A stretch of 64,000 nt of DNA. It comes from Nymphaea colorata (Eukaryota > Streptophyta > Magnoliopsida > Nymphaeales > Nymphaeaceae). Of this stretch, positions 13,796-62,864 are shown in pieces. The stretch is taken from assembly GCF_008831285.2 (NCBI RefSeq), contig NC_045146.1, positions 23,331,703 to 23,395,702 on the forward strand, given 5' to 3'. The position numbers and the translations under genes were made by a program. Each line of letters begins with the position of its first letter. Position 1 is the first letter of the stretch. The notes under the pieces are model-generated. The model had not been told where the DNA came from. It was given only the letters and a program-made list of their open reading frames with translations, and ran no database searches.

Positions 13796-15134
13796 CCAAC
13801 AGTAGACCCTTTATATAAAGTAATACTTGCAAAAGTCACCAAGTTGACGAAACATCACGAAACGTCACAAGTTCTAATCTCGCGAGTTCGTATAGCATCT
13901 AGAATGGCCAGACAGGATAGACCAAAAGTTTTAACATATTGGGCACAAGTCAACCTAAGTCAATGAGAATGAATATCTTGCTTTTTTGCTTAAGCATTTC
14001 ATAGCCTGTTTAGTTAAAAGAAATTGTGCACTAAATTGGTTAGTAGATTAAGTTTATTAAATGCTCATTGTTATCTTTAATGCATAGTCTGACCACACAC
14101 ACACATTATATATATATATATAAGAGAGAGAGAGAGAGAGAGATGATGAATAACTCTAGTCGTGAACGTGCAAAGATAATGGTGCTACAACCTTTTGTGG
14201 TGAACCACTATTTACAAGTTGGCGAATTTAGGTTTTCGTCAGAGGACAAACAGGGTTTTGAGAAGTTATATGTTTGTGGCTTTATGCCCTCTAAGTGCCG
14301 GCTGTATAAGAAATACATTTTACATAATGGAAGAGGATGCACATTAGCTAAATCACAAATAATGAGTGATATTTACAAGATAAGTTGCTTCAATTGGGAC
14401 AGAAGGACCAAAATGTAGCGAGAGAGAGAGAGGCAAAATTGGAAAAGATGAAAGTAACTATGATATCTTGACAAGTGGTAGGTCTTCTATACCCGCTGCT
14501 TTTTGAACATGTATAAATGCTTCTTTGTTACCACACTTCCGTGGGTTTGTTAAATAAAAGTTTTTTTTTTTAATTTAAAAGCTGCACTTTCAGCCACGAA
14601 TTCGAGAGTCTGCCTTACAACTTTTGAATTTCTAGTCGGAACATATTTCTAATTTTCTACCACGTACATTTGTGTGTTATGAATCTTTATGGTTGTGTTT
14701 GATAGTGTCATATTTAAGATTCAAAGCTGTTGAGTAAAAAAATGCAATTTGAGAGATCCTCTTTTTTAAATAATATGAGGAATCCATTTTGCATGGTAAA
14801 TGGATTTAAAATAAAAAGTTCGACCCTAAATTTATAGATCTGAGATCAGCCTTAAATAAATACAAATTAAAATCTAATGACAGACAACCCAACAAAAAAA
14901 CTGCGTTGGTGTCATTACAGCATTGAAGGAGGGATTTGTTTCACGTTCACTTGTGAAATCACGTAACAATGATTATTATCAAACAAGACATTATTTTAAT
15001 TTTTTTTAGTCTTAGAAAATACGTGAAAAATTAACTTTTTTAAAAACAGTTATTTGGTTTTTGGAGGAAAAGGAAAACAGGGTCCTTCCTTTTTTTCTTT
15101 TTTTTTTCCAAATCGTCTTTGATAGATGATGGTA
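13796..15134. other. Non-coding distal part of duplication arm 1
   Basis: Aligns with 36129-37967 in arm 2 with many small indels. No gene seen. It holds a TA/GA microsatellite (14106-14143) and several poly-T runs. At about 14230 it has the unoccupied version of the site where arm 2 carries a 396-bp hAT MITE. Confidence 0.75.
14106..14143. repeat. (TA)n(GA)n microsatellite
   Basis: A (TA)n run at 14106-14122 is followed by a (GA)n run to 14143. The equivalent stretch in arm 2 (36430-36560) has been expanded and rearranged, including a duplicated stretch around the CA/TA tract. Confidence 0.85.
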
Positions 15135-29700: not shown

Positions 29701-30220
29701 CAATCAGGATCTCTAGCAATTTCTTCCTTATGTTCTGTCTTAGTCGTCAAAAGCTTGCATGCAAATGAATGAATTAACCCATTCATGCAAATGTGCTATT
29801 GTTTGTGGCTGGACTCTAACGAAGTGTGCAATTTGCAGGTCGACAAGAGTGATCCCAATGCTTCACAGACTATAGAATTAACAGAAAAGGTGCAGAATGT
29901 CTGCAGGGCATCTGGTTTACTGAGAGAAAGGTTGGCACTTTACACCCTTCTCTTCTGCTGTGCAAATTTCAGTACTTTTTGTTCCTAGTCCAGCATGGTG
30001 GTTTTATCTTACTGCTGCTCCCTTTTTATCTTCTGTTTCAGACGTGTCTATGCAGAAGAGCAGCAATCAAGGCAAACAGCACTTTTTGTAAGTTTAGATC
30101 CTCATGGAAAACTAGTTACTGTTAAAAGTTTATTGCTTTATCACTTCTTGTGATTTGTGACAGATGATGGTGATGATAATGCTGTTTTCCATATTGGTTG
30201 CATATCTGTACTCCAAATGA
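17705..30220 (+). CDS. SQS: Squalene synthase, copy 2 (complete, 13 exons)
   Basis: Exons: 17705-17899, 19527-19569, 21859-21948, 23473-23548, 24117-24186, 24839-24982, 25102-25206, 25419-25565, 27342-27417, 29196-29284, 29839-29930, 30042-30087, 30164-30220. All borders are GT-AG, phases join, and the product is 409 aa, the usual length for plant squalene synthase. It starts [14 protein letters not shown], as the family does. The first aspartate-rich motif DTVED is at residues 77-81 and the second, DYLED, at 213-217; both bind magnesium and the diphosphates. The last 18 residues are a hydrophobic ER anchor. Oddity: residues 199-202 read NCTG where copy 1 and most eukaryotes have NSMG, in the conserved helix leading to DYLED. 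Intron 2 holds an antisense LTR element and intron 9 a hAT MITE. A TATA box lies at 17618. The reading frame is intact; whether the NCTG change affects activity is open. Confidence 0.96.
20448..20627. repeat. Two-copy 90-bp tandem repeat inside the LTR element
   Basis: Units 20448-20537 and 20538-20627 start ttcttcatcttagagggttt and differ by a single base (cagctt versus ccgctt). They sit between the gag-like frame and the 3' LTR. Confidence 0.95.
20935..21558 (-). CDS. Gag-like N-terminal frame of the LTR element
   Basis: Frame of about 207 aa starting [16 protein letters not shown], just downstream of the primer site. The first 60 residues form a likely coiled coil ([20 protein letters not shown], then EFREMF), the usual start of plant retrotransposon gag proteins. 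The second half is rich in Pro, Gly and Ser, with no zinc knuckle or protease. Plus-strand frames across the same GC-rich stretch look like shadows. Probably a remnant. Confidence 0.55.
   Translation of the reverse strand: MEDQVQQSLLLTVGRQESDLSYIRQGVAALATKVDGLRVSLDRLMDEFREMFHPALQNMQIVHGPAVAYIRSAVGASDDRMRRSEQPSRVPIGVPLHSSGGSPLCYCHLFLPKPLTDVQTKEPFPPKGASSASGTPVVQGEVRRTSPFPSPAGGSEENAACSRGIPCGQSPKVSPPKPGPPLESPPAGGPEATGSSLPPLDGMVGRW
21571..21581 (-). other. Primer-binding site of the LTR element
   Basis: On the minus strand TGGTATCAGAG follows the 5' LTR end (TTGCA) after a short gap. It is complementary to the 3' end of initiator tRNA-Met, the standard primer for plant LTR retrotransposons. It fixes the element's orientation. 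Confidence 0.85.
28324..29086. mobile_element. 763-bp hAT-type MITE in SQS copy 2 intron 9
   Basis: Absent from arm 1, which has one copy of the target octamer ATTTTGAT at 5949-5956. In arm 2 the octamer flanks the insertion perfectly (28316-28323 and 29087-29094). The ends are inverted, CAATGTTAT and ATAACATTG. Both subterminal zones are packed with the palindromic words CGTATCGTACGATACG and GATACG; the middle is AT-rich with no coding capacity. An 8-bp duplication and CA...TG ends indicate the hAT superfamily. Confidence 0.93.
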
Positions 30221-30370
30221 TGATCCCCTCTGGTGGGTTGGTTGTGCATTATGGACTGGTCCTATTTTATATGCAGTTGTATCATGACATGAAGATAATG
30301 AATTTCTTCACGATGGATTTGTACCAAAGTTCGTGTAACAAGGCCTAAGATAAGTTTTTGTTCCCAAATT

Positions 30371-31380
30371 AGTGAAATGCGAGGCACTTCGCCATTCCCT
30401 TCCATGCACCAGCATAAGACAAAGACTCTCTCTCTTCTCTCTCTCTCTCTCTCTCTCTCCTCCTTAACATGATGGTCTTTCGGTCATGCAGGCTATTAGG
30501 CAATCCGTTCTTTGAAGGGCCGCTTATGATTGAAGGATAAAAAATGAAAGGCTTTCATATTAATGTTAGCAATGGCCCATTACTTGGAAATAATAAAGCA
30601 CTCGTAAGCATGCATAATTGATGCCCAAGAAATTGACGTTGTTTGCCGTTGCTGAGTATTGCTTGTATGTTTGCTCAATTGCTTTGCTCCAAGGCTTCAG
30701 AATTTTTTCGGTTCCGTTGTTTCTTGCCCACAGGCCACAAGTGCAAACAAAATGACAAGCTACACAAGCCAGAGATTAGTGTAGGCAGTTGTTTTAAAAT
30801 GTTAACTAAGAAATATACATTTTAACTCGAAAAAAGAAAGTTGGACTCCAGTGTTTATGTCCCTAACAATTGAAGGTGAGAAACTAGAAGGTGCTACCCG
30901 CGAAGTTGTTCTAAATATATTTTAAGAACTAAAGGTGCCATTCTACGCAATTATTGTAAAAGAAAGAGCCTTCAGTAGTTAAGAATCATGTTTATTCACC
31001 AGATTCGAACCTCATTGAAACTTGAATACAGCACTCAGATTTTCGAATAATTTGTCAAACCAGGTTTTGACCATCTATCAATTTGGACTAGCTTTCATGC
31101 CAAAACTGGACACCCATCGGATTCAGCATGTTGGGTCATACCTGATCCATCGGCACCCATATGATTACATGACACTTTCTAAATTGGGAAGTTGCATGCG
31201 ATACAATGTGGGCATGAAGTGTGGCAATTCACGGCTTCTGAGTGTGAAAAAAAATATTTGATACTAAATTAATAAAGTTAGGGATACATTAGCTCTCAAG
31301 ATTTTGGGGATCAAACACTAAGACCTGAATCTACGGTATTAACTTAAAAATAATAGTTGCAAACCAAGTCACATGCATGT
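30371..31380. other. Arm-2-specific block of about 1 kb
   Basis: Present after SQS copy 2 and missing at the same place in arm 1 (about 7237-7258). Contains a TC microsatellite (30426-30459) and no recognisable gene. I found no terminal repeats or target duplication, so it may be an insertion here or a deletion in arm 1. Immediately after it (31384-31440) a unit containing gctgttgtgctgcatatatg is duplicated in tandem. Confidence 0.65.
30426..30459. repeat. (TC)n microsatellite
   Basis: Nearly pure TC run in the arm-2-specific block downstream of SQS copy 2. Confidence 0.85.
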
Positions 31381-31812
31381 AAGTAGCTGTTGTGCTGCAT
31401 ATATGATTTCTTGCTGTTGTGCTGCATATATGTTTTCTTAACATCATAAGCGATACCAAGGAATCACAAAATCTACAACCCGAACTATGTACCCAGATTA
31501 TGCAATTTCGCTGTTAGCGGTTTCCACTTTAGTAACGCACAACTGTCTGTTCATATGACGAATAAATTAATGCATCAAAATGTTAAATATTTTTACTTTT
31601 TGACAATTGATTACAATAACGAATCAAATTACTGGTGGCCCGCTCTTTGACAAAAATGGCATCACAGAACTTGTCACTGTTCACACCAGACTCGCGTGTC
31701 TCCATGAGGCTTATCCCTCTGAAGCGAATCGAACTCGTGAATTCTTGCGCGAAGAGCCGCCTCACTAGACCAGACTCCCTGCGGCCTGCGCGAGGGTAAG
31801 GCGAGCGGAACC

Positions 31813-33327
31813 ATGGCTACCTTTCGGTGGTTACTGCCGCTACCTGCTCTCCCCTTCCGCCCCTCGCCAACTTTCAGACTGCTTTTCTCTTCCCCGCCGC
31901 CTCCATGCTCTTTTCTCACTTCACCCGGCCTCCCCAACTCTTTTCTTACCTTCCAAACTCCTCGTCATTTGCTCCCTTTCCGTGCCATTCATCCACAACA
32001 GCAGAGTGGCACGCTTCTATCTGGAAGCATCTTCGAAGAAGACGACGAGGATGAAGAATTTGAAGAGGAGGATGATAGTGGTAGAGAATTCGAGGAAGAT
32101 GGCGATGATGGTAACCAAAAGGAAGAGGAGAAGACAAGCACAATCCCTTCTACTGCACCGCAGTCAGTTAACAATTTCAGAAGCAGAGGGACGCCACCGA
32201 TGCTGACTATTAAGGAGAAAAAGGAGCTCGCTTCCTACGCCCATTCACTTGGGAAAAAACTCAAATGCCAACAAGTTGGTTACTTCGTTTTTCTTGGAAT
32301 ACGATTTTTTATTTTTTTTTTGGGTGTGTTGATTGTCGTTTCTTTTCTTCTAATTGGCTTTTGATGTTGTCGTTGGTTCTGGCTCTTCTTCTCTGCATCA
32401 GGTCGGGAAGTCGGGGGTGACCGCGTCTGTAGCCGCGTCTTTCGTCGAAAGCTTGGAAGCTAATGAGCTTCTAAAGGTACGTTTATCTTGAGCATAGTGG
32501 TATTCATGTGTACAATTCAATTCGACGCGCTTGAACTGTTTGTTTTTTGGACTGACTGATGGATTAAAATTCCATTTTCCTTTTGATGTTATTGGCCTCT
32601 CTGTGAAACATACATAGTTCCAAAAGCTGTTTTCAGCTGGTAATGACCCAGAAGCTGTTTTCAGCTAAAAGAAGCCAACCTAATCTTGGAATATGGAGAT
32701 TGATAGGCAACGCAAGTATCAAGTGAGGGAAGAAAAGAAAGGAAGTAATGTAGCAAGTTTATAAGCTGTTAGTTAGTAGGGAGGGAACGAATGAAATGAG
32801 AGAATGGGAAATCTTAGCCAATCTAACAGATAGAATGATATTGTGATTATTTGATGGAAAGCTTAGGAGTTACTTCAAAGGGAGGGTGGTGGCAGTATTC
32901 CTTTTTTTTTTTTTTTCCCGAGGAAGAAATGTAACGTTGATTGCAATGATATCACCATGTTTTTCTCATTCTTGTTCTTAACAGCTGAAAGTGCATGGCA
33001 GTTGCCCCGGAGAGCTAGTTGATGTAGTAAAGCAATTAGAGGTAGCAACAGGTTCTGTGGCTGTTGGTCAGATTGGTCGCACCGTGATCCTTTATAGGCC
33101 TAGCATCAGCAAACTGAAGGCAGCGCAGAAGAAAAGGCAGGACAACGTGGTCCGGAAAAGATACAGCTCAAGATCTGGGTTGCCGGTATGACCAATCTTG
33201 AAATTCTGTACCTATAGCTGTACTTCATCATTCTCCTTACGTGGAAACTTTTCCTTCTCTCTTTTGCTAGCTGAGAACCCAAGAACCACGGGTATCTAGT
33301 CAAGGGCGCCGTAGAAGCAAAGTCTAG
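31813..33327 (+). CDS. CRM/YhbY-domain RNA-binding protein, probably plastid
   Basis: Exons 31813-32274, 32402-32476, 32985-33185 and 33271-33327, giving 264 aa. Residues 1 to about 60 are rich in Ser, Pro, Phe and Arg with almost no acidic residues, like a plastid transit peptide. Residues 75-107 are strongly acidic. One CRM domain spans about 131-222, starting LTIKEKKELASYAHSLGKKL. The RNA-contacting GxxG loop is GKSG at 156-159. The tail is basic (KAAQKKRQ, RRRSK). CRM proteins bind structured RNA, chiefly plastid group II introns and ribosomal RNA; a single-domain protein like this resembles bacterial YhbY and Arabidopsis At2g21350. The last exon is short; without it, translation would run through the exon 3 splice site to a stop two codons later, so the C terminus has two possible forms. 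A broken copy lies at 7657. Confidence 0.9.
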
Positions 33328-36128: not shown

Positions 36129-36675
36129 GTGGACCCTTTCTATATTTTTTTTTTAATCATCGTTTGGCAAGTAATACTTGCAAAAGTCACCAAGTTGACG
36201 AAACATCACAAGTTCGAATCTCGCGAGTTCGTATAGCATCTAGAATGGCCAGGCACGATAGACCAAAAGTTTTAACATATTGGGCACAAGTCAACGTAAG
36301 CCAATGAGAATAAAGATCTTCCTTTATTGCTTAAGCATTTCATAGCCTGTTTAGTTAAAAGAAATTGTGCACTAAATTGTTTAGTGGATTAAGTTTATTA
36401 AATGCTCATTGTTATCTTTAATGCATAGTCTCACCACACACACACACACACTATATATATATATAAAGTTTATTAAATGCTCATTCCTATCTTTAATGCA
36501 TAGTCTCACCCCCCCCCCCACACACACACTTTATATATATAATATATATATATATGAGAGAGGTTGGGGGGATGGATATTGGATAACTCTAGTCGTGGAC
36601 GTGCAAAGATAATGGTGCAACAACCTTTTGTGGTGGTGAACCACTATTTACAAATTGGCGAATTTGAGTTTGATC

Positions 36676-37071
36676 CTATGTCACACGGATACTTGGGTTT
36701 GGCCCACTTATCCGTTTCTATACTCCGATACTCCTTGGATACGTCTGGATCGGGTCTAGGTCAAACCCGATCCGAACCCGTTAAAAAAAACCCGATTTCT
36801 TTTTGATCGACCTTTCTTTCTCCCTTTCACCCAACAAGGTCTGTGCCTTTAGGATTTATGCTGTTGCAGCAGATCATGGGCAAAGATGGCGAATAGTTTA
36901 ATGTTTTTTGTGATGAACTATTAGTTTTAGTTTAATGTTTTTTTTTTCATTTTATCATTTGATAATATAAAATTAATCGTATCCGCGTATCTTAAAAAAT
37001 TAAAAATTACTGTATTCGTACCTGTATACTCATACTCGTACCCGTATCGCACCCGTATTCGTGTGAATTAG
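36676..37071. mobile_element. 396-bp hAT MITE related to the autonomous hAT at 54074-60988
   Basis: Perfect 8-bp target duplication GTTTGATC at 36668-36675 and 37072-37079. The left end CTATGTCACACGGATAC is identical to the left end of the large hAT elements; the right end, read in reverse, is CTAATTCACACGAATACG. Inside are the same subterminal words: ggatcgggtctaggtcaaac on the left and gtatccgcgtatc on the right. No coding capacity. Arm 1 lacks it (site near 14230). Confidence 0.93.
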
Positions 37072-37967
37072 GTTTGATCAGAAGACAAACATGGTTTTGA
37101 GAAGTTAGATTTTTGTCGCTTTACGCCCTCTTAAGTGTCGGCTGTATTAGAAAAATACATTTGACATAATTGGAGAAGAGGATGCACATTAGCTAAATCA
37201 CAAATAATGAGTGATATTTACAAAATAAGTTGCTTCAATTAGGACTGAAGGACCGAAATGTAGAGGGAGAGAGAGACAGAGAGAGGCAAAATTGGAAAAG
37301 AAGAAAGTAGCTATGACACCTTGACAAGTGGTAAGTCTTCTATTGTCCGCTGCTTTTTGAAAATGTCTAAAATGCGTCTTTGTTGCCACATTTCCGTGGT
37401 TTTGTTGAATAAAGGATATTTTTTATTTAAAAGCCGCACCTTCAGCCACAAATTCAAGAGTCTGCCTTATAACTTTTGAATTTCTAGTCGGGACATATTT
37501 CCACCACATACAATTGGGTGTTATGGATGTAGCTTCAGATTTAAGATTAGAAGCTGCTGCATAAAAAAAAAAAAAGTATATTTTGAGAGATCCTTTTTTT
37601 AAATAATATGAAGAATCCATGTTGCATGTTAAAATCTATGAATTTAAAATCGAATGAGGAAGAAGTTCGACCTTAAAAATCTACAGATCTGAGATCTGCA
37701 ATAAACAAATACAAATTAAGATCCAATTACTAACAACCCAACAAAAAAAAAAAACTGTGTTGTGTCATTACAACACTGAAGGAGGGATTCCTTTCACGTT
37801 CACTTGTGAAATCACGTAACTGAAATACTTGTATCAAATAAGATTTTTTTTTTTTTGTTTCAGAAAATACTTGAAAAAATAACTTTTTGAAAAACCATTA
37901 TTTGGTTTTTGGAGGGAAAAAGGTTCCTCCCTTTTTTTTTCCAAATCGTCTTTAATAGATGATGGTA

Positions 37968-45201: not shown

Positions 45202-48200
45202 CTACGTAGCTTTTAGCTCGCCAAGATTTTTGTTGATGAGTTCAGCAGAGAATAACATGCTTTGAGGGGAAGTCAATCGCCGGAATGCAGCTAAAAACCG
45301 GACCTGAGACATGCTTTAATTCATTAGCTACCAAGCGAACAAGTCTTCTCTGTGTGTGGGGGTGTTTGGGTGGGTGGTGGGGTTGTGTTTTTGCTCAGGA
45401 TAAACTAAGATGTTTGAGGGTTATATTACCCATTGGAATACGGACAGTGCCCACCAACAGCCTGGTAGACCAAATCCTTTGTTGACAGTAAGCTGTTCAA
45501 GGAAGCATGCAGATTACATCAACTCACTATCCAACATATTTTTCTTGCTTTGAAGCCCGTGCCATCATGACACTATGAAAATACTAATTTCAAGTCCTTG
45601 AGTTATAAGAAGGCAGAAGGCATACCAATAGTAGGACACCTAGACAAAAGCAACTGATCATCGACAAGCTCAGGAACGCAAGATCCCTCCCAGCCTATAC
45701 AAGAAAAAAAAAGAGGAAAATGTTCGGATTAAGAGCTGTACAAAAATTATGTCTACATTAAAACAGATCGTTCACTACAAGACCATAGACAATGAAAATA
45801 AGAATCAAGACAAAGAATGATAAAATGGGAGTTGAAAGTCTCAAATTTTTGCTTCCTACTTGTACCACCATGCAGCCTCACCTTAGAGAACAAGGAAAGG
45901 ATAGTCAAAATAGAAATAGCTATTTCTTAATCATCAATTCATCAATCGTATTTCATATGAAAATTTGGGAGCATGAACTCTAGATGCTTTTTGATGGTTC
46001 AATCCATCCATTGCTACAAATAGTTTTCTTCTGCAATCTAAAACACGTGTGATATATTGGATAAGATGATATGGTCTCATCTATACACAACTGTAGCTAG
46101 CTTTCATCTCATATGTGCACCCGGACATGCATAAACAGGCATCCCTGGCTTGATGTGATGCCACCAGTATCAGCCCAAAGTTGCTGGCATGACTATCTAT
46201 ATGGACAGTCACACAGTGTATCAACCCATTACTACCACGATACGACATGTCATCCCAAATTAATGCAACTGCCCAATACCAGGTGATTTCTCATGAACTA
46301 ACAAACTTTTAAAAAATGACAATAAAAAGTCAAACTTTGGACTCAACCTACTTTGGTGCAAACAAGTCTTCCAGTTTAGAAATAATTCAGCACCGGGCCG
46401 TATGGAACTAATGGTATTGGCTAGAATGGGATGAGGTAACGATGGAATGTTTTCCTCACAAAATTGCTCAAATTTCCATCATTGGTGAAATCAGTAGAGC
46501 AAAGTTCAACCTAACGTATTGAAGCTGTTGAATTATCAGTTTATAGTGAGTATCTTAGTGATCACAAAGGTTGTCAAAGTTAAAAACTCACTGCTTACAT
46601 GAATAAGCATATGCAAGGTGTGAAGTATTTAGCTGCAATTCTTCCCCATTCATTTAGGCATTTTTCCGTTACAGCATGGAATACCAGATCTTTGGACTAC
46701 GATTGCCTAGATACCTCTGCTTTACACTTTATCACCACACAGAATCATCCTAAAAGCTTCCACATATTCAAAGGAAATATTGCACTTCAATATATCCTTG
46801 CATTGTAGACATAATGCAAGAATGATTGCCTTAGAAGCACAATACCATATTTATGAGTTATGACTTATTTGAAACAGAAGATACAACGACTAATAAATGA
46901 AATGATGCCCATCTACAAATAAAGCATTTTAGTCCAAAAAGTAAATGGTTTCGTGTTGGCTCTAGTTGACATTCTTACCAGTAAGGTTCCTTCAAGGCTA
47001 AGTGTTGGTGGTGTAATCAGTATAGCGACAGAGTAAGGCAAAAGAACAGTTCTCATCTGCAAGCAAAAGTGCAGGAAAATATATAAGAATATCAGCTACC
47101 AAAACAATGAGCAAACTACAAGAAGTGAAAAGGAGAAAAGAAAGAATCAGCTGTAACTATTGTAAGCACCCCTAGATTTTCACCCACGTGAGTGCTACAG
47201 AAAATTAAAATGGATGCCATAGAATAGTGGAACATAGATGGACGGTCAGCCATATTTGAACTGCAGCAGCAGGTCAATAATCTCAATATATTGCAGATTA
47301 TTCCCCACAACTATGATGATCTTTTTCATTTCAAGGTCTAGCAGAACAATAAACATTTGCTGTTCATGATTTTGCATTGGCTCCTTATAAAAACTGAATA
47401 AATTCAGGGAATACTCCTACTAGTCCTACTTCAGCCAATTTTGCATGAAAGCATTTAATGAACCAGATGATTCAAAAAATATTGAGGCTATGTTTCAATT
47501 GTGGGCTGAGAATCCTAATTCTTTTACTTGTTTGGGCATCACTTGCAATTTAATGGATTTCCGCAACCTAAAGAGATGCACCAAATGGCCAACAATGTGA
47601 CAAGAAGATAAGATAGAAGTAAGATTTCTTTTTTCAAAATATTCTCTCTTCAGCCAACAATTTACATAAGACAGAAGTAGTGACAATTGACAAGGACTTT
47701 TTACCAAGGTATTTTATCTTTAGGCCGAGAATTTACATCTAGTCGATCATTATCCAATAAGCTTTTTATGCAAGCAACCAGATCACTAAATTGATGGAAA
47801 GCAAATAAGAAAACATTTGAAGGAAGAGTGCAAATGATGTAACAATTTTAATATCATGAGAATGTACCTCACTGCTGACACCAAGATCACTTGTGAAAAT
47901 ATAAGGAAAGAGCCATGGAACCACTGTGCCGATAGTTGCCAATATACATCCAGCAATAATCCCAATGGTCACAAGGGACTGCAGCAGCATTCTTGCCTGG
48001 GTTGAACAAGGAACATTTTAGTATATCTATCAACACAACACGGAGGATGAATATGAAGTTTCAAAACAGCAGAAAAATTCATACAGATGCAATAGAAGAT
48101 TTTTTGTAGGATCATGAAGAATGCTTATCTATTTTAGTAATAAATCAAATCCAAGAAATGAAAAAGAGACCAAGAAATGCATGATCTACTTCCATTACAA

Positions 48201-51200
48201 AGAGATTTTACCACCATTGCCTATCTATTGCATTATCAACTTTTTCCTTTTCTTGAGAAAGAACATTGTACTATATTTTAGTAATAAATCAAATCCATGG
48301 GACAGATTCAAGATATCATTCTCAGTCATGTCCACAATTCATAATATCCTGACGTCAACAGAATCAGATTTCAAGAAAGAACATAACAGCACATAGGCAG
48401 AAACAGAGACCTTCTCTAAATTCCTTTTCGCACCATATATCAACTCTGGCATAAATGACTGTGCTGTCTGAGAGAGAGGCTCGCCCCATACACCACACAT
48501 GCTGTACACTCCAATCATAACCTTGAAATGAAGAGGAAAGAAAGCCTTAGACTCATAAAAATTTTATCCAGGGAAAACGGCTCACTATAGAAAAAATGCT
48601 CAAGTAAAAGAGAAGAAAAGGAAACATATTTGAGATACTAAACTGAGTCTCAATAAAAACCTGATGTGCAGCAAGAGTAATTGTCCCCATTGACGTAGCA
48701 AAATAAGTAAGAAATGAATAAAATGCCACCTGAAAATGGTATGATACATTAGAAAGTACAGAAATGAAAAAAAATACTCAAAATGCAATTAAGATGAAAA
48801 AATTAATAACCAGAATACCTTGGAAAACATAGTTATGAATACAGGAGCTGCAAGCTCAACTATTTGCAAAAGTTCACTTGGTGATGGAATTGACAGCCGG
48901 AAAGCACTGAAACCAGACTTGTTTAAAGAGTCAATCATCAAAACTGCTCCAATAAACTGCAAACATCATTTCCAAGTTAGGTTATGGTGTAACGCATGAA
49001 TCCTATGATGACTTCATAATGTTCAAAAGAAATATGCATAGATGGAACATTAACATCTGCAATGTAACTAAGTAGAGGATCTAGACACTAATGTAATGTT
49101 CACATACTTGCGAAACCATTGTGGCCCATGCAGCACCAGCAATTCCATAATGCCAGAAACTGCACAATATAATATCTCCAAACCCATTCACTAAACTAGC
49201 AATAATCAAGACCTTCAATGGACCAAAAGAATCTTTCATTGCCAAACTGCAAACAGATACAACAAGTCTCAGACATTGTAAGGGATGATCCCAGATTTGC
49301 GTGTACCACATTGGTAAAGGAAATAGAAAGCATCAAAATGATAGGTTCCAGACAATTCCATTACAGAAATTTATTGTATTTCAAGCAAGACACACAACAT
49401 GGAACCTTTCTTATCAGGCAATAACGCCTTACCTATGAGTTTGCACATGCACATTCATGTCTGCTGTATGCCATGCTATGTGGTTCAATTGGGTCAAGTA
49501 CTAGAATCCAAACAAAAGAAACAAGACAATCTTATTACAGAATTTACGAGCTACAAATGCATACAACATGCGGGTGAATTGTGATGATGAACCCTCTAAG
49601 CTAGAAAAACCACGTTAAGCCCTGCCGACCAACCCTTGTGGAAGCAACACTATGGAAAACGTCAAGCTACGGAATGACAATGTTGATACTTGACCCAATT
49701 CCAGGGTGTTCAGCTTGACAACAATCACAGTTCCCTCTTACCACTTATTCATCACTAACTCTACCACTTGTTAAGGTATTCTGTTTGACATATTGAACAA
49801 TGGTTCTGGACAATGGTTGTCCAGAAATGAATGAACACCATATTCAAACAAGTAGTAAGCCGGATGTGCTCAAAATGGCTCTGGTATGAAATTGTCCTCC
49901 AATTGACTCTAAAAAAAGAGAACAAAAAATAGAAATCCCCAATTCATTAGTTCTGACTTGACTCTACCCTTCCCCCTTCCTTTTCCTCTCTCTCTCTCTC
50001 TCTCTCTCTGCGGACACCAGCCTTCTTGAGTCCAAACAGACAGTATATTGATAGAATGATTTTTATGCTTTAGTATCTTACGAATCTAGTAATATATTGT
50101 TTACCATGGTATGTGACAAATTGCTTTCATTTTTGTTGAATCGTTGATAGAAAGGTAGCTTGTTGTTTATGAATAGTTAATTTTGTCGTTTGTTGGCAAT
50201 TTGGGTGTGTGTATGTACCCTACCTACACCTGGACCCTGCATTTGTGTCGAACAAATATCACAGAGCTGCAATGTTTAGTTTTATTTTCCACGAAAACAC
50301 TTTTCTGTTCTTAAAATTCTTTGTCAATCTCTCAATACATGAGATCAGATGGGTCATCTGTTTCTCTTGCTGAGGCGCTCCCAGTCTCATGTTCCCTAAG
50401 GTTTAACAATTGTACAAGCCAAAGAAGCTTTTGGATTTGTTAGATCAATTTAACGTAAGGTTTTATTTGTTCTCCCTTGTAATATCTTATGTTATCTTCC
50501 CATTCATACCTATCCGCTTCTTCCCCATATTCTTTCTTTAACCCCCATGGCATGTCTTTCTGAATAGCTCCTTTTCTACTTATGTTTATTCCATATAGCA
50601 ATTTTTCTTGTTTCGTTTCATTTTTCCAATAAGTTCAGTATATTTAAAGATAAATAATCCACTTTCCCAAAGTTTTGCCAGGGTGGTTTCCATTATAACC
50701 TAAGGGAAGTAAACTTATTTATCTAAACAATAAACAGAAGCACATCCAAACAAGGCCTAAGAAATGCAACATAAACATTCCTTCTATGATTCTATCTATT
50801 TTATGGAATTTCCTTTATCTTTCTGCCCATCCGTTCAATTGGATATAATCCAGCTATTTGTGTTTGTTACATATTTAAATTAAAATATTAGCTTCACATT
50901 AGCGACTTTCTATTGCCATCTTACTCTATCCTTTCATTCTGCTTTCATTTTCTTGTCTGAATGCAGATCTGGAGCTTCAATTCATGTGTTACTTGGATGA
51001 TTAAGAAGAATGAAAGGCAATTCAATAAAAGGAATTTCCATTTGGTGTATTAGGCACAAGATAAAGTGGAATTAAAACCATCGTCATAGACTACCAAAAG
51101 TCTAACATATGAATATGAATGAGCAGTTTCAAAATGTCTGCAAATGCATTAAATCAACCACAAACTAAAGAATAAATCTAACTATTTGTTTAATCTAGAA

Positions 51201-54200
51201 ACAGAAAAGGAATGGCCAAAGCTGAAATCAATCAATGTCATAAAGGAGACTGAACTAAGAAATGTACACTGTAAGAACCGTGAAGAAAGTGTTTACCTTG
51301 CACTTTGAGCAACCATACCCACAAGAACTGCAGGCCATGCCAAGCCCCGAATCTAGGTGGAAAGCAGCAGACAAGTTTTACTTTAACCAACATTAAATGA
51401 CAAGGTTGAAAAAAGAATAACAAAATCATGAATCTTTGAAGTAGATCACAGAGTAACAAATTATATGGAAGGAAAACCAAAGAGCCAAAATTCCTGTGTA
51501 ATTTCCTTACATGCTTAGATAGTCAAAAGCACTAACCATGATATGGTTAAGAAGGTCACTAGAATCTGGCCCCTTGGAAGGACTAGCCAGCCTAGCAAGG
51601 ACCCAAAATAAGTCTAAAGCATTAATATGAAATAACCGAAAGCAATTGAAAGAAAACCCATATGATTATACTAATTACAACCACACATTTTCTTATTCTT
51701 TTAAATGTCAAAAACGCAAAAAGTGAAGAAAAACTTGCCCCCCACTTATGGTCACCTACGCTTCTAGGCGACTCTAAAGTGCTTAGAAAGCGGAAGTCAG
51801 GGTCTTCTCTACAATTACAGATGAAAGTTGTATCTCAAAGGCCCAAAGAGTAGGGGCAGAAGTTAGAAACAAAGAACTTTAAAATTTCAAGGAAAAGCTT
51901 AAAAATTCCTTAGAGCAATCCTGACTTGATGAGAAAAATAATTATGACCTATTAAGGAAAGAAGACTTGAACAAGGTGCTTCAGTGCATGTCTTAAAGCC
52001 AAAGAGATATTCTTTCGTTATGACTTTATGTTCATAATGAGAAATAAATCATAATTCAGACACTTAAATGGATATAATTTTCAGAACTCCAATGTGTATG
52101 AACCTGAATGTATGAGCTCGCAGCAGGCACTATATGTACATTCTTGGGTCCAATAAAAGCTGCAGCATGACACAAAAGGAACACCCTGTTACAATGACAA
52201 CTCTGATGCAATATGAGAAAAATGTGAAGCACAAGTTACTGTAGCTTATGCTGGTATTTCCAAATAAATTAACCATTACGTTTAGGACATTTAGCTGCAC
52301 TCAAGAAGTTGGTAACATATGTGAAATATCAAAAGTCAACAGTAGGTTAAATCATTGATATCTGGTAACATGCATGACCATAGCAAACAGAAGTTGCTGT
52401 GCAAGTAAGTGAATCAACACCATGAGTAAAAGTAGAATTTACATAGTCAAACACACAGATTCACACTTCTGCCTAATTTTCACTATGCATATTAAAATGT
52501 TTGCCACCCATTTTTTCATATATATCCCAGTATAACCAATTCTAAACACCTAATTATAGGACCTTAGATAATTGCATGTAGAATGTAATTAATTTTACCA
52601 TATCTAGAATGAAATGTTTCCAGCATATGCACCTCTATGTACAATGGTGCATGTGGAAGCACTTAAAGGGATGTGCATGTACTTGTGCAAGCTACCAAGC
52701 CTAAACTGACAATGAATTTAGAGTTTTCAATCCATCAGTACGTTTTAGTAGAACAAAATTATAGTCTATGTAGTATGACCACTTTAAAACGCTTTACATA
52801 ACCATGGTGAAATAACCATAACCATTAATTTTCATATTTGTGCAATGATGAATTCACCGTATCCAACCATCAAGACTTTTATACTCAATTTAGAGGCAGA
52901 TATAAGAATGTGAGAACCATTACCTCATGCTACTAATAGAGAAGATATAGGAAAATAGACACGTCATTGGATGACAAAGAAGGTATATAGGTTCCGAGAT
53001 AAGCATGAGGATACATGTATACAGCCATATCAATCTACTAAATCAGGTATAATATTTCTATGAGAACCAGATGGTTGCCAGGGAAAAGGAACAAAAAATA
53101 GAAGAGAACCAAAATCTACTTCTAAAGAAAAGAAACTAGTTAATTTCCAGTAATCCATGAAAAGATATAACTAAAGAAGAAAATGATACCACCATAAGCT
53201 AATTATTAGAACTAGAATTCTACAAATCACCATACCACTTAATATCTGGTTGCCGAACAATTTCATAACAAAAAGCATCCCAAAACCGCACACTAAGGCA
53301 ATAAAAAGTAGCATTGATATGTGTTCTTGAGCTTCCTCTCTATCCTGTAATTATCAATTAGAAATTATTAAAGCAGAAGATCCAGAAAAAGTAAAGTAGA
53401 GAAAGAAACTCATCACGATACATACAGCTTCAGTTGTGAGGACAACAAAGAAGAAAAGTAAGATCTAATTGCCACTAGACAAGTTTGAGTCAACAATGGG
53501 ATAAATAAATTAGAAATCTATAAAAGCACATAGGAAGAAAATATCAAATTGTTTCAAGCTGAAACTAAATTGGAAACTACCCAGGCCTGAAGGTGTTTCA
53601 TATTCATTCATGTCATAATGTTCATGTCTTGGGAGATTAAAAACTTAAAGGAGTTCCCAGTTACTTGATCAGTCTGTATTTTTCTGTCTTGGTACCCCCT
53701 GTCGAAGCATTCTTTACTCTACCATCTTCTTGCCTAGCCCCGCTTTCAATTCATATTTCTTGAATGCTGCTAATGAATATACCAAAGTTCCATGAAATCC
53801 CTGCAGTATGAGGCTATATTTTCCAACAACAAACCATCCACATCCTTTTCATTTTGACCACCTTGGCCATCTTTGTATGGTAGGAGGTAGAATAATAATT
53901 ATGGAGATGGGTTTAAAGTACTTAAAGGTTAAAAGCATCAACTAAGTCACCTAGGTACGGGTACGGGTTCAGGTACGGGTATGGGGAAGTTGGCATCAGT
54001 ATGGCAATTTGAGAAAACCTGGGTATTTTATGATAAAAAAAGAATGTATGAACAAGATATCTATACACAAGTGCTATGTCACACGGATACGGCAGACTGG
54101 GTCGAGTACCGGTGTCGACACGCGGACACGGGGATCCCGACACGGCGATACGGCTGGATACGTTTTGGATCGGGTCTAGGTCAGACCCGATCCAAACCAC

Positions 54201-57200
54201 TTGTATAACTGATTTTTTAACCCGCGTTTTGTTTTACGCACTAACATCTACCCTCGACGCTCGACCTTCGTTTACCCTCCACGGCTAACGCAGCAGGCTG
54301 GCAGCACAGTAAGCCAATGGCGGGCGACGGCGAGCTCCGGCGATCGACGGCGACTTCCGGTGGCGTCCGGCGGCAGCCAGCGACAGGCAGGTAGGTGTTT
54401 TGTCGATTATTTTCGATAATAGAAGTTAGGGTTTCAACTTTTATTTGGGGATTTTTTACATTGGGTATTAAAATCTGATTTGGGGATGTTTTGGTTTGAA
54501 GATTGGACGGTTTAGAATCATATTCTTCAATGCTATGTGCGATGTTTTCTTGTTTTTGTTTGATTTTGGGATTTGGGGATTTTGCCGTTTTGGGTGTATA
54601 ACCGATTTGGGGATTTTGCCTTAGCTGTTGTTCATGATGCTAGACAATGATGAATACGTGATATCTAGATGACATTAACATATAATTTACCATTCGTGAA
54701 TGTTCCTGTTCACTGTTCACTAATCTATTCACTTCAGCCTTCGCTATTGTTCATGTTTCTTTTAGTTTTAGGCTTTAACGAACTGCTTCTGTTCCTGTTC
54801 ACCTATGTCACACGGATACGGCAGACTGGGTCGAGTACCGGTGTCGACACGCGGACACGGGGATCCCGACACGGCGATACGGCTGGATACGTTTTGGATC
54901 GGGTCTAGGTCAGACCCGATCCAAACCACTTGTATAACTGATTTTTTAACCCGCGTTTTGTTTTACGCACTAACATCTACCCTCGACGCTCGACCTTCGT
55001 TTACCCTCCACGGCTAACGCAGCAGGCTGGCAGCACAGTAAGCCAATGGCGGGCGACGGCGAGCTCCGGCGATCGACGGCGACTTCCGGTGGCGTCCGGC
55101 GGCAGCCAGCGACAGGCAGGTAGGTGTTTTGTCGATTATTTTCGATAATAGAAGTTAGGGTTTCAACTTTTATTTGGGGATTTTTTACATTGGGTATTAA
55201 AATCTGATTTGGGGATGTTTTGGTTTGAAGATTGGACGGTTTAGAATCATATTCTTCAATGCTATGTGCGATGTTTTCTTGTTTTTGTTTGATTTTGGGA
55301 TTTGGGGATTTTGCCGTTTTGGGTGTATAACCGATTTGGGGATTTTGCCTTAGCTGTTGTTCATGATGCTAGACAATGATGAATACGTGATATCTAGATG
55401 ACATTAACATATAATTTACCATTCGTGAATGTTCCTGTTCACTGTTCACTAATCTATTCACTTCAGCCTTCGCTATTGTTCATGTTTCTTTTAGTTTTAG
55501 GCTTTAACGAACTGCTTCTGTTCCTGTTCACTATTCAGTCTGGCAGTACTATCATTTACAATTCTTGGATGTTCCTGTTCACTATTCAGCCTTCGTTCTG
55601 CTTCTGAATATCTGAAGTTTTGTGACTGCAGTGCATGTTTATACTTTGTCATTTGTTGTATTGTTTTATTTCATAAATTTTATGTTCATTATACGTTTTT
55701 TCCGTTTTTTTATTATGTTTAATCTAGTATGGCGAGCAAAGGAAAAACAGTGTCTCAGTCTCAAGACTCTCAACCTACAAGTTGTGGTTCTGGATCAGCT
55801 ACACCTCAGCCACCATTATGGTCATACGTGAATCTAATGGGGAAACCTCCTGGAGGCGGTGGAAATGCTTTTTTTAGGTGTAATTTTTGTGAAGGACAGT
55901 TCAATGGATCATATACAAGAGTGAAAGCACATCTATTAAAAATCAGTCAAAAAGGAATTCAACCATGTAAGAAAATCACTAACGAGACTTTGGCTCAGTT
56001 GAAGAAAGAACAAAAAGCCTTTGAGAATAAGAAAAGCACATCATCTGGATCTGGTTTCATTGACATTGCTTCAATTTTACATGATGATATTCAGAATCCT
56101 ACCAAAAAAAGAAAAGTTGTTGATGTTCATCAGAAATCAATTAAGGATTCATTTAGTTTACAAGGACGGCGAGAATTAGATCTAAAAGTGGCGACATTTT
56201 TCTATGCTAATTGCATACCATTTAATGTAGCTAGAAGTCCATATTGGAGAGACTTAGTTACATCTATTGCAAATTCTAACTTGACTGGGTATGTTCCCCC
56301 TAGTTCTGAAAGGCTTCGCACTGTACTACTAGAACAACAGATGACTCGAGTGAACAAATTGTTAGAGTCTCAAAAGTTCACTTGGGATCAACACGGAGTT
56401 TCTATTGTTTCTGATGGCTGGACAGATTTGCAACGACGCCCTCTTATTAATTTCATTGCAACTTCAGCAAATGGACCAATTTTCTTGAAAGCAATAGATG
56501 CATCTGGTGAATACAAAAGTGCTGAGTATCTGAAAGGATTGTTTATGGAAATAATTGAAGAAGTGGGGAAAGAAAACGTTGTTCAGCTAATTACAGACAA
56601 TGCACCTGTATGTAGAGCAGCTGGTATTGCGATAGAAAAGGAGTACCCTCATATCTTTTGGACTTCTTGTGCAGTTCATAGTTTAAATTTGGCTCTAAAG
56701 AGTATATGCAATCCACCAAGTAAAGAGCAAGATCCTCATGCTTATGAATTATGTTCGTGGATTGAAGACTTGGAAAAGGATGTGAGGAACATCAGAAATT
56801 TCATAGTAAATCATCAACATGCACTTTCCATTTATAACAAGCATTCTGATCTAAAATTATTAAGAGTTGCAGAGACACGTTTTGCATCTCTAATTGTTAT
56901 GGTCAAAAGGATAAAAAGGGTGAAAAGTGCATTGATCAGTATGGTGACTGATGATGATTGGAGTTTCTACCGTGCTGATGATGATGACAAAGCTCAAGCA
57001 ATCAAAGGAATGATTCTTGAAGACAAGTGGTGGGATCAAATCTTTTATTTTCTTGCATTCACAGAGCCGATCTGGGAGATGTTGAGAGTTCTTGATTGTG
57101 ATAATTCAACGTTGCACTGTGTGTATGAGATGTGGGACACTATGATTGAAAAAATCCAAGAGGTTATTTTTAAGCATGAAAAAAAAAGTATTGCACTTGA

Positions 57201-60200
57201 AGATTCAGCATTTTTTGATCATGTGCATAGAATATTGATTGCAAGATGGGATAAAAGTAGCAATCCTCTTCAATGCATGGCACATACATTAAATCCTAAA
57301 TATTATGGAAAAAAGTGGCTTACAGGGGGTGTTGGAAGAACCCCACCACATCTGGATCTAGAATTATCAACAAACAGAGTAGCATGTATTAATAGGATTT
57401 TCATTGATGTACATCAAAATCGCCGAGCTAATGATGAGTTTGAAAGGTTTTCTACTGGAATTGGAGAAGATGTAGGTGCAACTGTAGACAAAGATAATTA
57501 TCCATCTTTATCTTGGTGGATTAAACATGGAACTGCTTATCCTACTCTTCAATACCTTGCTTTCAGATTGCTAGTTCAACCTGCTACATCTTCATGCAGT
57601 GAGAGAAATTGGAGTACATATTCACAAATCCACACTATAAAACGAAATAATCTCACAAGCAAACGTGCAGAAAATCTGGTTTATGTGCATTCTAACCTTC
57701 GGCTTCTATCACGGAACAAAGAAGAATATAGGTAAATTAAGTATATGATTTATTGATTTAGATGTTTCTCTTCTTATTCGCTAACATCATAATAATTACA
57801 ATTTTTTTGTCTTGTAGGGAAGGAGAAACTAAATATTGGGACGTGAATGTTGACGACTTTAACTTAGAACAAGAGAATGAACTTGAAGTTGTTAATTCAA
57901 GATTCGAAGAACCTTGTATTCCCTCAACATCTTCTATTGTGGAAGAAGAGGAGATTGGGGAGAACGATGATTTGGGCATTGATGATGACTAGAATGATGA
58001 TGAACAATGTTTTGTGATGATTGATGAATAATGTTTTGTAACTTTCTTTGAGACTTTCTTCCTTATGTCTTAGTAGTTATCACTTTTGAGATTGGTGATG
58101 AACAATGTTTTGTTTGAGACTTTCTTTATTATCATTTTTAATTTTTTTGAATATAATATTCGCCGTATCCGCGTATCCTAAAATTTTGAAAATGTCGTGT
58201 CCCCGTACCCGTACCCGTATCCATAGGATACCCGTACCCGTATCCGTGTGACATAGCTGTTCACTATTCAGTCTGGCAGTACTATCATTTACAATTCTTG
58301 GATGTTCCTGTTCACTATTCAGCCTTCGTTCTGCTTCTGAATATCTGAAGTTTTGTGACTGCAGTGCATGTTTATACTTTGTCATTTGTTGTATTGTTTT
58401 ATTTCATAAATTTTATGTTCATTATACGTTTTTTCCGTTTTTTATTATGTTTAATCTAGTATGGCGAGCAAAGGAAAAACAGTGTCTCAGTCTCAAGACT
58501 CTCAACCTACAAGTTGTGGTTCTGGATCAGCTACACCTCAGCCACCATTATGGTCATACGTGAATCTAATGGGGAAACCTCCTGGAGGCGGTGGAAATGC
58601 TTTTTTTAGGTGTAATTTTTGTGAAGGACAGTTCAATGGATCATATACAAGAGTGAAAGCACATCTATTAAAAATCAGTCAAAAAGGAATTCAACCATGT
58701 AAGAAAATCACTAACGAGACTTTGGCTCAGTTGAAGAAAGAACAAAAAGCCTTTGAGAATAAGAAAAGCACATCATCTGGATCTGGTTTCATTGACATTG
58801 CTTCAATTTTACATGATGATATTCAGAATCCTACCAAAAAAAGAAAAGTTGTTGATGTTCATCAGAAATCAATTAAGGATTCATTTAGTTTACAAGGACG
58901 GCGAGAATTAGATCTAAAAGTGGCGACATTTTTCTATGCTAATTGCATACCATTTAATGTAGCTAGAAGTCCATATTGGAGAGACTTAGTTACATCTATT
59001 GCAAATTCTAACTTGACTGGGTATGTTCCCCCTAGTTCTGAAAGGCTTCGCACTGTACTACTAGAACAACAGATGACTCGAGTGAACAAATTGTTAGAGT
59101 CTCAAAAGTTCACTTGGGATCAACACGGAGTTTCTATTGTTTCTGATGGCTGGACAGATTTGCAACGACGCCCTCTTATTAATTTCATTGCAACTTCAGC
59201 AAATGGACCAATTTTCTTGAAAGCAATAGATGCATCTGGTGAATACAAAAGTGCTGAGTATCTGAAAGGATTGTTTATGGAAATAATTGAAGAAGTGGGG
59301 AAAGAAAACGTTGTTCAGCTAATTACAGACAATGCACCTGTATGTAGAGCAGCTGGTATTGCGATAGAAAAGGAGTACCCTCATATCTTTTGGACTTCTT
59401 GTGCAGTTCATAGTTTAAATTTGGCTCTAAAGAGTATATGCAATCCACCAAGTAAAGAGCAAGATCCTCATGCTTATGAATTATGTTCGTGGATTGAAGA
59501 CTTGGAAAAGGATGTGAGGAACATCAGAAATTTCATAGTAAATCATCAACATGCACTTTCCATTTATAACAAGCATTCTGATCTAAAATTATTAAGAGTT
59601 GCAGAGACACGTTTTGCATCTCTAATTGTTATGGTCAAAAGGATAAAAAGGGTGAAAAGTGCATTGATCAGTATGGTGACTGATGATGATTGGAGTTTCT
59701 ACCGTGCTGATGATGATGACAAAGCTCAAGCAATCAAAGGAATGATTCTTGAAGACAAGTGGTGGGATCAAATCTTTTATTTTCTTGCATTCACAGAGCC
59801 GATCTGGGAGATGTTGAGAGTTCTTGATTGTGATAATTCAACGTTGCACTGTGTGTATGAGATGTGGGACACTATGATTGAAAAAATCCAAGAGGTTATT
59901 TTTAAGCATGAAAAAAAAAGTATTGCACTTGAAGATTCAGCATTTTTTGATCATGTGCATAGAATATTGATTGCAAGATGGGATAAAAGTAGCAATCCTC
60001 TTCAATGCATGGCACATACATTAAATCCTAAATATTATGGAAAAAAGTGGCTTACAGGGGGTGTTGGAAGAACCCCACCACATCTGGATCTAGAATTATC
60101 AACAAACAGAGTAGCATGTATTAATAGGATTTTCATTGATGTACATCAAAATCGCCGAGCTAATGATGAGTTTGAAAGGTTTTCTACTGGAATTGGAGAA

Positions 60201-62864
60201 GATGTAGGTGCAACTGTAGACAAAGATAATTATCCATCTTTATCTTGGTGGATTAAACATGGAACTGCTTATCCTACTCTTCAATACCTTGCTTTCAGAT
60301 TGCTAGTTCAACCTGCTACATCTTCATGCAGTGAGAGAAATTGGAGTACATATTCACAAATCCACACTATAAAACGAAATAATCTCACAAGCAAACGTGC
60401 AGAAAATCTGGTTTATGTGCATTCTAACCTTCGGCTTCTATCACGGAACAAAGAAGAATATAGGTAAATTAAGTATATGATTTATTGATTTAGATGTTTC
60501 TCTTCTTATTCGCTAACATCATAATAATTACAATTTTTTTGTCTTGTAGGGAAGGAGAAACTAAATATTGGGACGTGAATGTTGACGACTTTAACTTAGA
60601 ACAAGAGAATGAACTTGAAGTTGTTAATTCAAGATTCGAAGAACCTTGTATTCCCTCAACATCTTCTATTGTGGAAGAAGAGGAGATTGGGGAGAACGAT
60701 GATTTGGGCATTGATGATGACTAGAATGATGATGAACAATGTTTTGTGATGATTGATGAATAATGTTTTGTAACTTTCTTTGAGACTTTCTTCCTTATGT
60801 CTTAGTAGTTATCACTTTTGAGATTGGTGATGAACAATGTTTTGTTTGAGACTTTCTTTATTATCATTTTTAATTTTTTTGAATATAATATTCGCCGTAT
60901 CCGCGTATCCTAAAATTTTGAAAATGTCGTGTCCCCGTACCCGTACCCGTATCCATAGGATACCCGTACCCGTATCCGTGTGACATAGCACAAGTGTATA
61001 TGTATATATATACAAAATTCCACAAAAACACAAATTCAAAACAAAATTCATACTCAATACACAATGCTTAAAACTGAAAACAAAAGGAAATTGTGGTTTG
61101 GACCGGTTTCGACCTGAAAACGATCACTGCCATACCCATGTACCAGTACCGTACTAGCGCAAAATCGCTGTACCAATGTGACTTGGACTCTTGGAGTATC
61201 AAGAAGGTTTTACTGCTGGAAAACAACAATACATTACATACTTTTCATACAGAAGTATACACATAATGGTTTCAAGCATGGATCTCAATATCATGGAGAA
61301 TTGGTAACCAAGAACTCATTGCCTACAGTCCTCAAGGAGTAGTAATAGACTAATTGTCACAGATGTGAAGAAACAAATAACTATTGCCTTCATGCTTCCA
61401 GCACCAGGATCTAAATATGTGACAGTAAGTAATGGTGATGTGTCTCAGATGAAAAGTAGTGGACACTTCAGAGAAAATCACTTACTGTAGAATTAGGAAC
61501 TAATTAGTTATAAAGAGGCAACTTCATGACAAAGGAACTGACATTTAAATGAGCGATAGCTTTTGCAAAAAATCATGAAGTTGGAGATTTGATTGAGCTG
61601 TCCGCTATCATTCTCACACTAAGTATAGAAGCAATAACATCATTGAGAATACTGTCGAAGCTGGAGTGCGTTTCAGACCCCTAACATTTGGCCTGTTGGC
61701 TATCTACAGAAGGGTTCATGAACATATAAAAGTGCATGGAAGTCTTCCAGCAATTTACACAAGTGAACCAACCTAAGCACAAAGAGAAAGGGTTTGACCA
61801 ACGTATGACAGGCTGTCAAACTCTATCAGAGAATGTCCTTCAGGTCATGGCCACAGGAGGATATAGGTATTGGAGTTGCTAAGAATTCAGGCTGACACTC
61901 TTCTGCAAAGACAAGCCTGGTTCAAGAACCTGTTTAATCTTCTGAGAATATTGTTGTGGCGTTTGAAAACACATGCAGCTTGATGTTTCTGGCTAAAGAG
62001 TCTTGAATCTTCCGTTATATATCAAGAACAAAGGCATTTGAACATGTATCCAGCTTGACATTTGAATCTCGGATATAACTAAATGGCATGATCTTTACAT
62101 AGTTTTAGCTTCTTGCGTTAGGTTAGGTCAGTCCTTCTATAAGAATGAGATTAAATGAAAGTAGACAGAAATCGTAGTAAAATGCATGTGAATGGACCTT
62201 TCTTGCAAGAGAAGTAGCAACCAGGTTGGAGGTAGCGATTGACAGGAACATGAATACGAAGCTCATGTAATCACAAACAACCGTTCCCGGCCCTGTTCAT
62301 TCAACACCAGTGCGAAGTCCATGAAAGGGACGAGAATGAATCGATGAGTTCTATTGTTAGCAATCCGCTCATCCGTTTTCTGTGTTTCAACAAATTCAAC
62401 AAAACTAACGGAGAGAAAGGACACCAACCTAAAGCCGCGAGCTCCACCGCACTGCTCTGCCCGACGACTGCCGTGTCGATGAGACTCATCATCGGGCTGC
62501 ATAGCCAGAGGCCGGTCGCCGGAGCAGCAAACATTGCGATATCCTTCACCTGCTGCCAGATACCACCCTGCAGATTCCCCCCCAAACTGATATGTCCCCC
62601 TTCAGCGCTCCCCACAATCTGCTCCTCCCTGGCCAAGACCGGCCCGTCCTCCCCAGAACCAATACTTTTAGGTCCATCGTCAAAAGGTCCGATCGTCGGT
62701 GAGGCGCAACAACGAATCCTGCGTCTCGAACGGGTCAGCGGCGAGTCAAGAGGAAAGGGCTTCAAAGAGCGGAAAGCAGCAGGGTGCCACCGAGAGCTGG
62801 TCAGGAAGAGGCAAGGCGGGTGGGAACCCCAGGTGGCTCTTGCCGCCATGCCGAAGAAGAGCAA
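45202..62864 (-). CDS. DTX46: Plastid MATE transporter, DTX46/EDS5H-like (complete, 14 exons)
   Basis: Exons in coding order (minus strand): 62864-62429, 62292-62198, 53344-53236, 52159-52104, 51352-51297, 49246-49108, 48956-48819, 48729-48661, 48521-48411, 47996-47868, 47056-46979, 45694-45626, 45492-45430, 45303-45202. All have GT-AG borders and matching phase. The product is 549 aa from 62864, or 544 aa from the next ATG at 62849, which I find as likely. The N terminus is rich in Arg and Ser, like a transit peptide. MATE signatures include [38 protein letters not shown] and [16 protein letters not shown]; about twelve membrane helices are expected. The closest Arabidopsis proteins I recall are DTX46/EDS5H and EDS5, envelope carriers linked to export of isochorismate for salicylic acid synthesis; the substrate here is inferred. 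Intron 2 (62197-53345) is about 8.9 kb because of the nested hAT elements. Confidence 0.95.
49986..50009. repeat. (CT)n microsatellite in MATE intron 5
   Basis: A 24-bp CT run inside the 2-kb intron between exons at 51297 and 49246. The rest of that intron shows no recognisable gene. Confidence 0.85.
55046..55119 (+). other. Candidate upstream coding exon of the hAT transposase
   Basis: An ATG at 55046 opens 24 codons ([16 protein letters not shown]...) and reaches a good donor, GGCAG|gtaggt. The acceptor at 55726-55727 (ctag) lies one base before the main ATG, and joining gives AGT-ATG in frame, adding 25 residues. The same sequence in element A (54317-54390) is now separated from its coding exon by element B. 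It could equally be a spliced 5' leader with no coding role. Confidence 0.45.
55729..57992 (+). CDS. hAT transposase (BED zinc finger, DUF659, hAT dimerisation), element B
   Basis: Coding exons 55729-57731 and 57818-57992 give 725 aa. Unspliced, the frame ends after 668 aa; the 86-bp GT-AG intron restores an acidic tail ending [15 protein letters not shown]-type zinc finger lies at about 30-82 (C51, C54, H68, C80). KKRKV at 126-130 looks like a nuclear localisation signal. The DUF659/RNase-H-like core starts near 170, with likely catalytic D229 (SDGWTD) and D290 (ITDNA), CAVH at 314-317, and the third acidic residue E625 in SCSERNWS. The hAT dimerisation region is about 600-668. Every expected key residue is present, so it should be active. 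An upstream in-frame exon (55046-55119) may lengthen the N terminus. Confidence 0.95.
58461..60724 (+). CDS. hAT transposase, element A
   Basis: Exons 58461-60463 and 60550-60724. The first 668 residues and the spliced tail are identical in translation to the transposase of element B, with the same zinc finger, KKRKV signal, D229/D290/E625 and intron. Its start codon is now 205 bp past the right end of B, so B separates it from the promoter and 5' leader of A (54074-54802). It may be silent, or driven from sequence within B, although its protein is intact. Confidence 0.95.

Follow-up and report, generated by a model that had tools for sequence, protein, structure and literature searches.

A hAT transposon inserted into a practically identical copy of itself in the water lily Nymphaea colorata

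Introduction

The structure described here is a hAT element that sits in a practically identical copy of itself in the water lily Nymphaea colorata, with the coding parts of both copies unbroken, and its closest described counterparts are the double and nested Ds elements of maize, likewise hAT elements inside hAT elements. It lies in a window of 64,000 bp, the whole stretch of DNA that was analysed, at C9:23331703-23395702 of a 407.8-Mb assembly of 783 contigs. The classical double Ds consists of two truncated Ds in inverted orientation, and a 1991 paper named in a reference list (PMC1978519) reportedly concerns a double Ds in tomato. In PMC3260210 a Ds-l3 element of B73 is reported to carry a Ds-l4 element inside it; no chromosome-breaking double Ds was detected in B73, and nesting in maize is said to be rarer for Ds than for retrotransposons, probably since nested Ds become chromosome-breaking and are selected against. 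The water-lily pair differs from the maize cases in being full-length, coding and in direct orientation; both elements lie on the plus strand, and the inverted nesting of the classical double Ds is absent. A second comparison is offered by the autointegration of Sleeping Beauty and piggyBac, which is similar in its lack of self-avoidance but is intramolecular and destructive, whereas here two molecules were involved and both copies are whole.

In other respects the element conforms to the plant hAT transposons of the DUF659 type, relatives of Ac and Hermes, with which it shares target duplications of 8 bp, terminal inverted repeats, the DUF659 domain and the hAT dimerisation domain, a Hermes-like fold, the residues D254, D315 and E650, conserved in the alignment, and internal-deletion derivatives; no feature distinguishing it from them was found. 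The composite is an already known kind of event that is rarely preserved, and this example is clean, recent and unusually well preserved. No report of a self-nested autonomous hAT element in Nymphaea was found in the titles and abstract openings of the open-licence PMC literature. We are confident that two full-length hAT elements of a young clade are present, one having entered intron 1 of the other's transposase gene in direct orientation and the outer one residing in an intron of a DETOXIFICATION 46-like gene, with cut-and-paste transposition from a sister copy as the most likely origin. The composite is real and recent, and known hAT behaviour explains it well.

Structure of the nested elements

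The outer element occupies 54074..60988 on the plus strand (6915 bp, or 3453 bp once the insert and the second octamer are removed) and is flanked by the octamer CACAAGTG, given without strand, at 54066..54073 and 60989..60996. The inner element, in the same orientation, occupies 54803..58256 (3454 bp, plus strand) between copies of CTGTTCAC, likewise without strand, at 54795..54802, in intron 1 of the outer transposase gene, and 58257..58264. The 19-bp terminal inverted repeat is free of mismatches at all four ends, namely outer left (54074..54092, plus), inner left (54803..54821, plus), inner right (58238..58256, minus) and outer right (60970..60988, minus). Re-examination of the window sequence bore out the coordinates, lengths and both octamer duplications given in an initial annotation made from the sequence alone. 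Its statement that the copies are nearly identical also held: the inner element and the outer one without its insert differ only at element position 903, by one T within a T6/T7 homopolymer.

The octamer CACAAGTG occurs four times on the plus strand of the window, twice exactly at the outer ends. CTGTTCAC occurs four times in each element copy (element positions 633, 640, 722 and 773), always inside intron 1, and its presence at the inner ends is less telling because it is a repeated word of the element. Both inner ends nevertheless adjoin it in precisely the register that the outer element shows. The central claim of the annotation, that a hAT element has inserted into a nearly identical copy of itself, is supported, this being what the sequence shows.

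Transposase gene and protein

The transposase gene of the outer element comprises exon 1 at 54317..54390, exon 2 at 58460..60463 and exon 3, to the stop, at 60550..60724, all on the plus strand, a model that agrees with the annotated N. colorata protein P0001 (LOC126410604, 750 aa). In the inner element the exons, again on the plus strand, lie at 55046..55119, 55728..57731 (carrying a zinc-finger-like region, DUF659 and the hAT dimerisation region) and 57818..57992, to the stop. All introns of both models are GT-AG. The open frames 55729-57735 and 58461-60467 each encode 668 aa and are identical, as are the spliced products, just as the annotation had stated; its description of the protein as 668 residues plus a spliced tail fell short, for the gene begins in exon 1, the full transposase has 750 aa and the 668-aa frame is only part of it. 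The first 25 residues are encoded upstream in the element. The 750 residues predicted from the two copies are the same and differ from P0001 at two positions. Since the inner element lies within intron 1 of the outer gene, neither frame is interrupted. The annotation had neither exon 1 nor the host gene in which the composite lies, and it did not place the insert in an intron of the outer gene.

The hAT C-terminal dimerisation domain is present (PF05699, 49.4 bits against a cut-off of 21.4), Hermes chains were matched at E 3.3e-9 (profile A1), and a Hermes-like ribonuclease H fold with a helical insertion was found. D254 is conserved in 96% of 120 aligned rows, D315 in 99% of 119 and E650 in 96% of 112; which D residues are catalytic is a putative assignment made by motif. 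E650 aligns with a Hermes E but falls in a model stretch (residues 624-639 of exon 2) with a predicted local distance difference test score (pLDDT) below 50. C76, C79, H93 and C105 are conserved in 95-100% of 101-103 rows, and no Pfam zinc-finger family was matched at E 0.01. Ends, frames and splice sites are intact in both nested copies, and the element is predicted from these to be autonomous.

The family in the genome

Family members were sought with a left-end query (40 of 377 candidates scored) and further queries (40 of 464, and 40 of 367 for the transposase), so that all counts are lower bounds. Thirty loci were fetched, namely the 26 hits outside the window at 93-100% identity and 4 of 12 at 87-89%. 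Perfect 8-bp target duplications were found in 24 of these, one locus had a pair matching at 7/8, and five had no locatable pair. A genome search for further near-identical copies, which the annotation had proposed, yielded four full-length ones: L009, L012, L013 and L014, on C10, C12, C7 and C6, carry 2, 4, 2 and 5 substitutions relative to the inner element, each with a perfect 8-bp duplication. In the tree these four and the nested pair fall into a single clade (support 100/100, stem 0.0052), which we read as a recent spread from one progenitor.

The open frame is retained in 12 of the 18 full-length copies (over 3300 bp) tested, a set to which another full-length copy, L040, does not belong. 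L012 (C12:22423464-22426917) shares with P0001 a tyrosine at C339, a position conserved in 97% of 117 aligned rows, and is probably the annotated LOC126410604. L010 and L011 are internal-deletion derivatives, about 99% alike, as known from Ac/Ds. Neither the 30 fetched loci (BLAST, E 1e-20) nor 6 additional loci held further self-nested copies. An older copy at C3:15812093 (L021/L039) is interrupted (L039 3084-8406) not by its own kind but by an element that has terminal repeats of 182 bp and an open frame of 1421 codons, which we read as a copia polyprotein; the intruder is probably a copia retrotransposon. The window itself holds a 396-bp non-autonomous relative of the same family, a miniature inverted-repeat transposable element (MITE), at 36676..37071 (plus strand) with the duplication GTTTGATC; the paralogous stretch near 14228-14235 lacks the MITE and has one diverged octamer instead. 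As judged from these copies the family appears young and is possibly active, and the view of the annotation that it may still be mobile is plausible.

Age and origin of the inner copy

With a rate of 7e-9 per site per year, the absence of substitutions in 2 x 3453 bp caps the age at about 62,000 years (95% upper bound); rates of 1.5e-8 to 1.3e-9 give bounds of 29,000 to 334,000 years. All of these are general rates and not water-lily measurements. Dated by sequence identity, the self-insertion is recent. It would have come about by standard cut-and-paste transposition with the family's own transposase.

We somewhat favour a sister copy of the outer element as the source of the inner one, mobilised during or just after replication. 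What favours such a hop is position, because only the nested pair lies this close: among the 40 transposase copies scored (of 367 candidates) it is the only pair within 100 kb, the next being 138 kb apart. Among the 40 left-end hits scored (of 377 candidates) there are two short relatives on C6, 44 kb apart. With random placement on 400 Mb, a pair within 3454 bp would arise with a probability of 0.0002 for 6 copies and 0.014 for 40 copies. A review (PMC2874221) names Ac as one of the elements with local hopping, and PMC3744419 documents, for reversed-ends transposition, that Ac ends insert into the sister chromatid at about the time of replication. A set of 24 duplications, to which the nested pair did not contribute, points to a loose target preference of roughly [GC]TTnnnAC; CTGTTCAC ranks in the top 1.3% of the element's octamers and as a target word would suit it.

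Several observations weigh against this picture. The chance figures flatter it and are not clean probabilities, because the finding was chosen for being nested. The remaining young copies are spread over four other contigs; long moves thus also occur in the family, which speaks against a strictly local habit. An A at position 105 is common to the inner element, the outer element and L009, and a T at 125 to L012-L014; no private substitution unites inner and outer, L009, which shares A105, has two private changes, L013 has no private substitution either, and the tree supports the nested pair as a group at only 61/0. The outer octamer CACAAGTG misfits the target preference, its score being matched by 57% of octamers, and of the 24 duplications from which the preference was derived, 3 fell below the window median when left out.

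With no marker private to the nested pair, sequence alone cannot place the source at the outer locus. A possible alternative, from which we lean away, is that an unlinked family member, near-identical and situated elsewhere in the genome, gave rise to the inner element and has since been lost or altered or is missing from the assembly. The four full-length copies with 2-5 substitutions speak for such a source, as does the missing private marker. None of the fetched copies, however, matches the nested pair fully from end to end of the element, and the 29 measured copies plus the nested pair make up 0.018% of the genome, which leads to an expectation of about 0.001 self-hits for 6 random insertions, a lower bound because the family extends beyond the fetched copies.

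An assembly artefact is very unlikely, be it a false join between copies that belong to separate places or a second copy of one element introduced by the assembler. In its favour, the T6/T7 difference lies in a homopolymer, where differences are typical long-read errors, and repeats so alike are hard to polish. The sequencing passages of PMC7015852 describe a published genome of 409 Mb built on PacBio RSII reads from libraries of about 20 kb, with Canu, Arrow polishing and Illumina short reads. Against it, the 6.9-kb composite is shorter than those inserts and than the mean read, which works out at about 9 kb when 49.8 Gb are divided by 5.5 million reads. Nor would an artefact create an 8-bp duplication in exact register at inner and outer ends alike.

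Intramolecular autointegration, in which an excised element attacks itself, has next to nothing in its favour beyond the precedent of Sleeping Beauty and piggyBac, which lack self-avoidance in the part of PMC3952818 concerned; the autointegration of one element is described as yielding either a pair of deletion circles or a single inversion circle, and it was rejected on topology, since two complete copies with their four ends require two DNA molecules. The annotation had seen in the nesting a lack of immunity to self-insertion, which is true of the present event but not special, being expected of eukaryotic transposons according to the same part of PMC3952818. A tandem duplication that arose within a single element, through recombination or replication slippage, could draw on existing direct repeats, which measure 729 bp and about 2733 bp, yet the repeat boundaries are exact element ends with an 8-bp duplication, for which reason it too was rejected as barely conceivable.

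Potential of the composite

The insert is intronic and carries identical splice sites, so that the same 750-residue protein could still be made from the outer promoter. A transcript from it would splice exon 1 to the nearest acceptor and so encode that protein from the inner exons, while outer exons 2 and 3, behind the end of the inner gene, would require read-through transcription and are probably little used. The ends follow the order left, left, right, right, and the nested alternative ends foreseen in the annotation are indeed present as four left-right pairs. As all four are in normal orientation, units of 3454, 4183, 6186 and 6915 bp are excisable in principle. The composite has neither a directly oriented pair, as in sister-chromatid transposition, nor a reversed pair, as in reversed-ends transposition, in the sense in which PMC3744419 describes these where it treats them. 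Such pairs are tied to chromosome rearrangement in maize, and their absence would help to explain the persistence of the structure; by its geometry, direct nesting would be harmless.

A more far-reaching interpretation, which we consider doubtful, is that of a viable compound transposon. An intronic self-insertion in direct orientation would spare the transposase gene and make no chromosome-breaking end pairs, two promoters would feed one protein, the 6.9-kb or mixed-end units may move as new elements, and intron 1, with four well-fitting target words, would serve as a safe landing site. If it is true, direct orientation and intronic positions should strongly prevail among surviving self-nested plant hAT elements. 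Here a coding pair has survived at full length, though nested Ds are described as rarer in maize, and the locus, in an early-branching flowering plant, offers a way to test outside maize how survival depends on orientation, whether mixed ends are excised and whether elements hop between sister chromatids.

Host locus and other features of the window

On the minus strand, stretches that match P0121, a DETOXIFICATION 46-like protein of N. colorata, are spread over 45205..62849. Intron 2 of this MATE gene runs, with boundaries set by eye, from 53345 to 62197 (minus strand, 8853 bp, about 1930 bp without the composite), so that most of this 8.9-kb intron consists of the composite, whose orientation is opposite to that of the gene. 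Residues 1-141 and 292-339 of P0121 match the window at 100%, other stretches at 51-97% with alignments that overrun exon edges. Words resembling hAT subterminal repeats flank the outer element (near 53948 and 61194), perhaps an older relic that served as landing site; a test for such a relic around the outer element gave a weak result, its score being reached by 4 of 500 shuffles.

A 763-bp element at 28324-29086, with ends CAATGTTAT and duplication ATTTTGAT, has a longest stop-free stretch of 64 codons and probably represents another non-autonomous hAT family; the paralogous stretch at 5949-5956 has a single octamer and lacks the element. The window also carries a large direct duplication (1-8102 against 22294-32259, and 13818-15134 against 36169-37967), 79-99% identical by piece, with insertions between the pieces.
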